From positions 310,001 through 374,000 of the forward strand of contig JAIXWL010000010.1 of NCBI GenBank assembly GCA_027491315.1: a stretch of DNA of 64,000 bases. Direction: 5' to 3'. The notes beneath the pieces were generated by a model. It was not told the DNA's origin. It ran no database searches and was given only the letters and a program-made list of their open reading frames with translations. This DNA comes from Cytophagaceae bacterium (GTDB taxonomy: Bacteria; Bacteroidota; Bacteroidia; Cytophagales; Spirosomataceae). Within the stretch, counting starts at the first letter, position 1; the number at the start of each line of letters is the position of its first letter. This document shows positions 1,082-53,414 of the stretch, piece after piece. The position numbers and the translations under genes are program-made.

Positions 1082-1114
1082 AACGCTGTCAAGGTTTAAA
1101 ACCTTGACAGCGTT
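1082..1114. repeat. 33-bp perfect palindrome AACGCTGTCAAGGTTT-A-AAACCTTGACAGCGTT (copy 1)
   Basis: 16-nt arms are exact reverse complements; identical copy at 1249-1281 and near-identical copy at 53382-53414. Confidence 0.95.
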
Positions 1115-43270: not shown

Positions 43271-43621
43271 ATGGGCCTATTCGATAACAATAAGTTAATC
43301 GATCTCTTGAGCAATTACCTCAAGACACAATTCGAACTGGTGAAGTTAGACATCCAAGAGCGAATCGAAGAACTATTGACTCGAATTTTCACCTTTTTCT
43401 TAACGGCTTTTGCGGTATTGATTACCCTGTTTTTTGCCTTAATGGGTATGGCCAACTTTTTAAACGAATATGTAAAAAGTACTTATTTAGGTTATCTCAT
43501 TGTGGCGGGGTTCACAGCTATAGTTAGTATAATTTTAGTGAGTAACCTTAAAAAACAAGGTAAAAAAGAAGACGCAGAGGAAATTGACAGCCCATCAACT
43601 GAAGACGATATTGAACCATGA
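43271..43621 (+). CDS. Phage-holin-family (holin-X-like) membrane protein
   Basis: LLSNYLKTQFELVKLDIQERIEELLTRIFTFFLTAFAVLITLFFALMGMANFLNEY. Confidence 0.72.
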   Translation: MGLFDNNKLIDLLSNYLKTQFELVKLDIQERIEELLTRIFTFFLTAFAVLITLFFALMGMANFLNEYVKSTYLGYLIVAGFTAIVSIILVSNLKKQGKKEDAEEIDSPSTEDDIEP

Positions 43622-43959
43622 GCCGAGAAAAAAGTAAAAAAGAAGTTTTGCTTGCCCAAGCGGAGAGCTATGAAAAAGAACTTTCTGAGGAAGTGGGTGA
43701 AATAAAACAACAGATTAAAGAAAAGGGAAGCCAAGTATTACTGATTGGTGGCGTATTACTTGGTTCCTATTTGCTGTATTCCCTTTTATCGGGCTCAGAA
43801 AAAAAATCAAAAGTAGAAGATAAAGAAGGTGGTTCTTTCATCGGAGGAGCCATCAAATCATATGCCATTGCCCTGGCGCTTTCTCTAGCAAAAGATAAGT
43901 TAGTTGAATTTCTTAGCCAATTGGAGGAAAATAATCAACAAGCTCCAACTGAAAAGTAG
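43618..43959 (+). CDS. Hypothetical membrane protein
   Basis: 113-aa ORF with ATGA overlap to the upstream gene; one clear TM segment plus helices. Confidence 0.6.
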   Translation: MSREKSKKEVLLAQAESYEKELSEEVGEIKQQIKEKGSQVLLIGGVLLGSYLLYSLLSGSEKKSKVEDKEGGSFIGGAIKSYAIALALSLAKDKLVEFLSQLEENNQQAPTEK

Positions 43960-43981: not shown

Positions 43982-44061
43982 AGATTTGTCAAGTTTAATA
44001 TTTGTTAGCATTCAGATTTGGTAACATTGGGATTTGGTAGCATTTAGATTTGTCAACTTTT
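43982..44061 (+). repeat. Five degenerate 16-nt tandem units in exact register (AGATTTGtcAACaTTt-like)
   Basis: agatttgtcaagttta / atatttgttagcattc / agatttggtaacattg / ggatttggtagcattt / agatttgtcaactttt read consecutively. Confidence 0.85.
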
Positions 44062-44078
44062 GAAAAGTTGACAAATCT
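44046..44078. repeat. 33-bp perfect palindrome AGATTTGTCAACTTTT-G-AAAAGTTGACAAATCT
   Basis: 16-nt arms are exact reverse complements. Confidence 0.95.
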
Positions 44079-44129
44079 CTAAGACAAATCTCTGAATGAA
44101 ACCACTGATGCAAATCTCTAAGACAAATC
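44072..44129. repeat. 19-nt direct repeat caaatctctaagacaaatc (44072-44090 and 44111-44129)
   Basis: Exact sequence repeat at a 39-nt offset. Confidence 0.9.
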
Positions 44130-44168
44130 CCAAAAAATTCCCTAGCTAATCCTACCCACCGCCATCAA

Positions 44169-45243
44169 TTAATTTCCCATCAAATAAGCTTTGATAAACT
44201 CATTGATTTCACCATCCAAGACGGCATCCGTATTGGAAGTTTGATGATTTGTTCGATGATCCTTTACTCTTCGATCATCCAATACATAACTTCGAATCTG
44301 GGACCCCCACTCAATCTTTTTCTTTCCAGCCTCTACCTCAGCTCGTGCAGCATTTCGTTTATCTATTTCAATTTGGTATAATTTCGACTTCAATAAACGC
44401 AAGGCTACTTCCTTATTTTGCAATTGTGATCTTTCCTGTTGACAAGCAATTATGATTCCTGAAGGCCTGTGGGTTAAGCGCACTGCTGTTTCTACCTTAT
44501 TTACGTTTTGCCCACCTGCTCCTCCTGATCGGAAGGTATCCCAGTCAATATCTGCTGGATTCACATCAATCTCAATGGAATCATCCGCTAAGGGATAGAC
44601 GTAAACGGATGCGAAAGAGGTATGTCGACGAGCATTGGAATCAAAAGGCGAAATACGTACCAAACGATGAACTCCATTTTCAGAACGTAAATTTCCATAC
44701 GCAAATTCGCCTTCTATCTCAATCGTCACTGATTTTAAACCAGCAACATCGCCATCATTGGAATCTACCAAACGAACTTTAAAGCCATTTTTATCTGCCC
44801 ACATGGTATACATGCGAAGGAGCATACTTGCCCAATCTTGTGATTCTGTTCCTCCAGCTCCGGCATTGATTTCTAAAACAGCGCTCATTTGATCGCCCTC
44901 TTCTGACATCATTTTACGAAACTCTAGAGCCTCTAGTTTTTCTTCTAATTTAGCTCCCTCGATATCTACCTCTGCTTCAGTAGCATCACCAGACTCATAG
45001 AATTCCCAAATGGTTTCTAAATCTTCCATAGAAGCATTAAGTTTATCGAAACCCTCTGTCCAAAATTTCAAGCCACGCATCTCGCGCATGGTGCTTTCCG
45101 CTTTGTCAGGATTATTCCAAAACTCGGGATCCATGGTCACCGTTTCCAATTCGGAAATCAAATATTTTTTGTGATCGTAGTCAAAGATACCTCCTTAAAG
45201 CCTCTATTCTGGCTTTCAGGTCATTGAACCTGTCTTTTGTCAT
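44169..45243 (-). CDS. prfB: Peptide chain release factor 2, translated via programmed +1 frameshift at in-frame UGA (45183-45181)
   Basis: Track ORF 44169-45161 is RF2 ([39 protein letters not shown]). Upstream on the minus strand: ATGACAAAAGACAGG...TTAAGGAGGTATCTTTGAC: 20 codons, then TGA, then +1 frame into [13 protein letters not shown]. Confidence 0.95.
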
Positions 45244-53381: not shown

Positions 53382-53414
53382 AACGCTGTCAAGGTTTGGA
53401 ACCTTGCCAGCGTT
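53382..53414. repeat. 33-bp palindrome copy 3: AACGCTGTCAAGGTTTGGAACCTTGCCAGCGTT
   Basis: Differs at three positions from the 1082 and 1249 copies. Confidence 0.92.

Follow-up and report, generated by a model that had tools for sequence, protein, structure and literature searches.

A putative RAYT-associated palindrome beside prfB in Aquirufa, fringed by half-site arrays

The 64,000-nucleotide stretch of DNA analysed here (the window) belongs to a genome that we assign to Aquirufa, as the DNA around orthologous copies of the palindrome described below is 74–89% identical to named species of that genus. At about 44 kb, prfB – the gene for peptide chain release factor 2, on the minus strand (44169–45161), with a close orthologue in 37 of 38 genomes of the genus – converges with a plus-strand gene for a small protein of 113 amino acids (43618–43959). 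Between the two lies a perfect palindrome of 33 nt (44046–44078), read in the sequence as AGATTTGTCAACTTTT-G-AAAAGTTGACAAATCT, REP-like and of the T class, in which 16-nt arms (44046–44061 on the plus strand and 44063–44078 on the minus strand) surround a single G. The palindrome locus folds strongly as single-stranded DNA (z −5.9).

On its left, the palindrome is approached by four extra 16-nt units that follow one another without gaps and are oriented as the left arm (plus strand), which itself forms the fifth unit: AGATTTGTCAAGTTTA (43982–43997; 14/16 identical to the arm), ATATTTGTTAGCATTC (43998–44013; 11/16), AGATTTGGTAACATTG (44014–44029; 12/16) and GGATTTGGTAGCATTT (44030–44045; 11/16). 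The small-protein gene ends 22 nt from this array. On the right there are also four units, oriented as the right arm (minus strand) and set in a 13-nt register: CTAAGACAAATCT (44079–44091), the decayed CTGAATGAAACCA (44092–44104), CTGATGCAAATCT (44105–44117) and CTAAGACAAATCC (44118–44130), with an exact 19-nt repeat (44072–44090 recurring at 44111–44129). An earlier sequence-only reading had described half-sites that are direct on the left and inverted on the right of a perfect palindrome, and this layout is real, down to its coordinates and sequences, the five gapless left units (43982–44061) and the 19-nt repeat; the single 16-nt register that it assumed has to be given up, since the right side runs in steps of 13 nt and the decayed unit there had been overlooked. 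Within the left array, units 2–4 are 12–13/16 identical to one another and have changes in common that are absent from the arm, so re-duplication inside the array must also have happened. The best match to the arm among the left units is the outermost one, and there is therefore no simple outward age gradient at this locus.

A palindrome of this kind did not arise by chance in any of 100 shuffles; matches to the half-site consensus number 7, where 1.7 would be expected. The two highest tandem-repeat (TRF) scores in the 64 kb belong to the left and right arrays, at 71 and 57 (next best 44). The former is barely above the best of 60 whole-window shuffles (70) and the latter below it; it is the position of the arrays on both arms, together with the recurrence of the pattern at dozens of copies elsewhere, that rules out chance. 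In 464 kb of the same genome, a tandem repeat is present in 6 of the 7 gaps that hold the palindrome and in 5 of the 153 that do not, a contrast somewhat inflated by the greater length of palindrome gaps.

The palindrome is dispersed. The window's own genome has 22 copies at up to three mismatches (with 0 control matches), or about 26 when looser forms are included, and five other Aquirufa have 14–23 each; it is absent from the remaining Aquirufa searched. Copies are found in tandem and divergent gaps as well. Outside the genus the 33-mer, mostly in its A class, occurs in Mucilaginibacter, Thiomargarita, Desulfobacterota and others, where several copies lie beside or inside the gene for a related RAYT. 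Searches for the arm strings in the open-access literature returned no occurrence, Rfam only a spurious microRNA match for the palindrome locus, and phage records no match to it.

Two observations from these more distant genomes can be recorded in passing. In the Thiomargarita MAG DZAL01, A-class palindromes form dense clusters at four loci, in near-regular tandem with short spacers and with up to about 19 palindromes per 8-kb stretch; one of these clusters (L085) adjoins a RAYT gene. In three other stretches a RAYT-like gene contains the palindrome within its reading frame (near position 486 of L151, 1935 of L170 and 7054 of L128).

The core of the element is much better conserved than its surroundings. 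Eight arm variants exist, the main ones differing at position 8 in both arms together (T–A or A–T), and both position-8 classes occur within four clusters of orthologous sites (defined by blastn of 800-nt flanks), the prfB site included. Among 96 sites in six species, each represented by one genome, 94 have no mismatch between the outer 14 bp of the arms – a figure biased upward, as some arm positions were set by the search pattern itself – and the unbiased search, allowing up to three mismatches, turned up only one arm change in 22 copies that was not mirrored in the other arm. Orthologous sites in different species share 96.5% identity in the core and 60.6% over the adjoining 50 nt of flank, compared with 53% for shuffled sequence.

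A gene for a protein of 210 amino acids lies between two A-class copies, 854 bp apart, in the window's own genome. This protein scores 49.8 bits against the NF047646 model REP_Tyr_transpos, under the 80-bit cut-off, and has no match in a Pfam search; it carries HUH (NHFH) and YIHxNP motifs, and H72, H74 and Y143 are invariant in an alignment of 16 proteins related to it. The best fold match of its AlphaFold model (pLDDT 86) is 4er8, a TnpAREP with its REP hairpin (E 2e-8). All six members of the clade with the AGATTTG palindrome have an open RAYT frame, and the motifs vary between clades, from NHFH and YIH[VLI]NP in this one to NHYH and YIHNNP in the AGCTTTA clade.

The linkage between palindrome and RAYT extends across the genus. 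Different palindromes (beginning AGCTTTACTAAC or ACCTTTGCCAA) flank the RAYT of other Aquirufa clades, and the same family stands at the prfB site of the same genome; in all 17 Aquirufa genomes with a palindrome found at both places, the prfB-site family is the RAYT-flanking one, three families being involved in all. None of these families is present at prfB in eight genomes without a RAYT match. There are also genomes outside this pattern: one, with an assembly that is 89% complete, has a palindrome without a RAYT match; three have the ACCTTTG palindrome at prfB and none of these families at the RAYT locus read in each, the first of two matches; and six have a RAYT but none of these palindromes at prfB. 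A search for a RAYT specific to the majority T class found none, and the RAYT-flanking AGATTTG copies read in the clade are all of the A class. As for position 8 itself, the AGATTTG family reads AGATTTG-A-CAA beside the RAYT and mostly has T in dispersed copies, while the ACCTTTG family reads ACCTTTG-C-CAA beside the RAYT and has G at the prfB site in 5/5 genomes.

From these sequence comparisons and the structural model, we read the palindrome as a probable RAYT-associated, REP-like element of an atypical kind, without a GTAG foot. It shares with REP/RAYT (TnpAREP) systems the form of short palindromes dispersed between genes, the family-specific pairing with an HUH/Y1 gene flanked by the same palindrome, the predicted protein fold, and the coexistence in one genome of two families, each with its own RAYT. 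However, no GT[AG]G foot common to the copies was found, for which reason we do not file it as a GTAG REP; it has neither foot nor bulge, only 16-bp arms around one base, it numbers about 26 copies where classical REPs usually exceed 100, and it is fringed by half-site arrays. TnpAREP subclass 2.6, from Bacteroidetes, has the signature NH[LIV]H and YIH[QN]NP. The protein's NHFH and YIHxNP fit neither this signature nor that of subclass 2.4 exactly. Subclass 2.6 – rich in Bacteroidetes and described as having ‘atypical secondary structures’ (PMC6006769) – could include the palindrome's system.

A second REP-like family, AACGCTGTCAAGGTTTNAAACCTTGACAGCGTT (the AACGCTG family), has 48 copies in the genome, three of them in the window (1082–1114, 1249–1281 and 53382–53414). 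Many of its copies share one mismatch, at position 8 of one arm, and its RAYT gene has an in-frame TAG in this genome and an open frame in five relatives.

Other known elements resemble the locus in part. REPINs and BIMEs, too, are composite arrangements built around REP hairpins, but there the building blocks are whole REPs, set in opposite or alternating orientation – in a REPIN, two inverted REPs that form a longer hairpin – whereas here a single palindrome is flanked by half-sites only, always in outward tandem. TIRYT elements (RAYT relatives with terminal inverted repeats; PMC3733652) likewise have a Y1 gene bounded by inverted structures, although in Aquirufa these are complete palindromes that are also dispersed singly. 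With minisatellites produced by slippage at hairpins, the arrays have in common short, degenerate tandem units beside a hairpin, rapid turnover and internal re-duplication; they differ in being restricted to a single palindrome family of a single clade, in starting from the arm and in carrying its variant base. The sequence-only reading had known of no named feature type with this layout, which is wrong for the core, a probable RAYT-associated REP-like palindrome, but holds for the fringes as far as the open-access literature shows. It is these half-site arrays, belonging to one family in one bacterial group, that seem to be new.

The arrays recur at other copies, as that reading had proposed to check. 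In the 150-nt flanks of the 96 sites there are 33 exact extra copies of AGATTTG[TA]CA, 33 direct and 0 reverse with respect to the adjoining arm, an orientation rule that is what arm duplication gives by itself. In 33/33 the position-8 base (27 T, 6 A) matches that of the local palindrome, which demonstrates that the copies were made locally. Half-sites with at least 9/11 matches decrease in density with distance, thinning within about 60 nt of the arm. Tandem repeats with a TRF score of at least 45 are present in 69 of 180 flanks from four species (23/52, 10/42, 11/42 and 25/44), against 2 of 180 after shuffling. Their commonest periods are 12–16 nt, with others of 6, 7 and 18–24, and many arrays at other copies are built of units unrelated to the arm. 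At orthologous sites, arrays differ in unit sequence, unit number and period: the flanks have turned over faster than the species have diverged. As the sites are shared by descent, these counts do not represent independent events, though the flanks are nearly unrelated between species. The earlier proposal that the palindrome grows or decays by duplication of its units thus finds support next to the arms, in the orientation, class match and distance decay of the half-sites, but not for the palindrome itself, whose core stays at 33 nt and 96% identity between species; nor does the period in general equal the arm length, as had been supposed.

Comparison with other palindromes indicates that the arrays are specific to family and lineage. 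The AACGCTG family of the same genome has arrays in 0 of 46 flanks (G000) and 0 of 36 in a second genome (G033), the AGCTTTA family shows tandem repeats in just 1 of 32, and the AGATTTG palindrome outside Aquirufa in 3 of 54 flanks in Mucilaginibacter and 1 of 32 in Desulfobacterota. An enrichment of half-sites in both orientations in the pooled other genera was traced to the clusters of whole palindromes in one Thiomargarita assembly and set aside. General intergenic minisatellites were also considered and rejected as a source; Aquirufa that have neither RAYT nor palindrome often carry them at the prfB site, but they are rare away from palindromes in the window's own genome. Several Aquirufa without a RAYT match have degenerate heptamer arrays (AGTCGAT/AGTCGCT/AGTCGGG) downstream of prfB and no palindrome there.

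Taken as a whole, the locus is in our view quite probably a RAYT-associated hairpin with family- and lineage-specific outward duplication of its arms, followed by decay. On this reading the palindrome is a dispersed hairpin, and the intergenic site where it lies in Aquirufa, between prfB and the gene converging with it, has been occupied for a long time. The flank of each arm would keep gaining tandem copies of the outer 12–16 nt of that arm; these would keep the orientation of the adjoining arm, move outward or re-duplicate among themselves, and then decay, so that flanks turn over fast around a hairpin core held nearly perfect. The likely source is local tandem duplication set off at the foot of the hairpin during single-strand exposure, triggered either by replication slippage or by a RAYT that nicks the terminal CT and transfers strands there. 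The arrays themselves may be without function.

Slippage at the hairpin alone, with the polymerase pausing at its foot, the nascent copy of the arm slipping back and an extra arm being made without any part for the RAYT in the arrays, is a serious candidate, to which we give somewhat under an even chance. Slippage at a hairpin between direct repeats has been documented in vitro (PMC4134008), the locus has the strong single-stranded fold noted above, unit orientation would follow automatically, and left units 2–4 look like mutual duplicates. However, the documented outcome in vitro is deletion rather than duplication, and arrays are lacking both from another palindrome family that is more numerous in these genomes and from the same palindrome in Mucilaginibacter.

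It is conceivable, if rather doubtful, that the cognate RAYT drives the additions, cutting single-stranded DNA at the CT that ends the arms and many half-sites and rejoining it unequally, so that CT-bounded units are added or removed. TnpAREP enzymes are known to cleave at a CT on the 5′ or 3′ side of the REP and to recombine the ends (PMC8266576); all arms end in AAATCT, the RAYT frame is open throughout the clade, and the arrays are restricted to the AGATTTG family. Yet no arrays are formed by the AGCTTTA family, although it, too, ends in CT and its RAYT frame is open, and several array units end in something other than CT. The array-free AACGCTG family speaks against a general hairpin effect and the AGCTTTA family against a general RAYT effect, and neither trigger as yet explains the specificity. 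A stronger version, which we regard as unlikely, is an active enzyme-linked process that adds half-palindrome units outward from the RAYT hairpin, maintaining a conserved core with a self-renewing, class-matched fringe; through feedback, the fringe might even change the variant base of both arms at once.

Loss of the hairpin nuclease SbcD was considered as a cause, there being no match to it in 38/38 Aquirufa genomes, while the 9 listed genomes from other genera of the same family all have one. The AGCTTTA clade is likewise without SbcD, six Mucilaginibacter genomes have no match over the cut-off, and neither group has arrays; SbcD loss is thus insufficient, though a candidate permissive factor.

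It is improbable that the palindrome is a mere transcription terminator between convergent genes and the repeats ordinary intergenic drift. An intrinsic terminator has a G+C-rich stem followed by a U-tract; the stem here is A+T-rich, and no T-run or U-tract follows either arm. The site does lie between convergent genes, and REPs are often found at gene ends (PMC3733652), but other copies lie in the tandem and divergent gaps mentioned above, and tandem repeats are rare in the remaining gaps of the genome. Least probable of all is the suggestion of the sequence-only reading that the half-sites form a selected multi-site protein-binding array, iteron- or operator-like, since, although recognisable half-sites persist at many loci in strict orientation, unit sequence and spacing are not conserved between relatives, the period is not fixed, many flanks have unrelated units and flank identity drifts to near-random.

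RAYTs are widespread, and their action on palindromes in living cells is poorly known. In Aquirufa, an exact palindrome has been kept symmetric across species through paired changes in both arms, and the flanks of its dispersed copies record local DNA events. Three built-in controls – a different family within one genome, the palindrome itself in other genera, and orthologous sites between species – allow an effect of hairpins in general to be told apart from one peculiar to the family, and so make the question of RAYT activity one that could be tested by resequencing strains.
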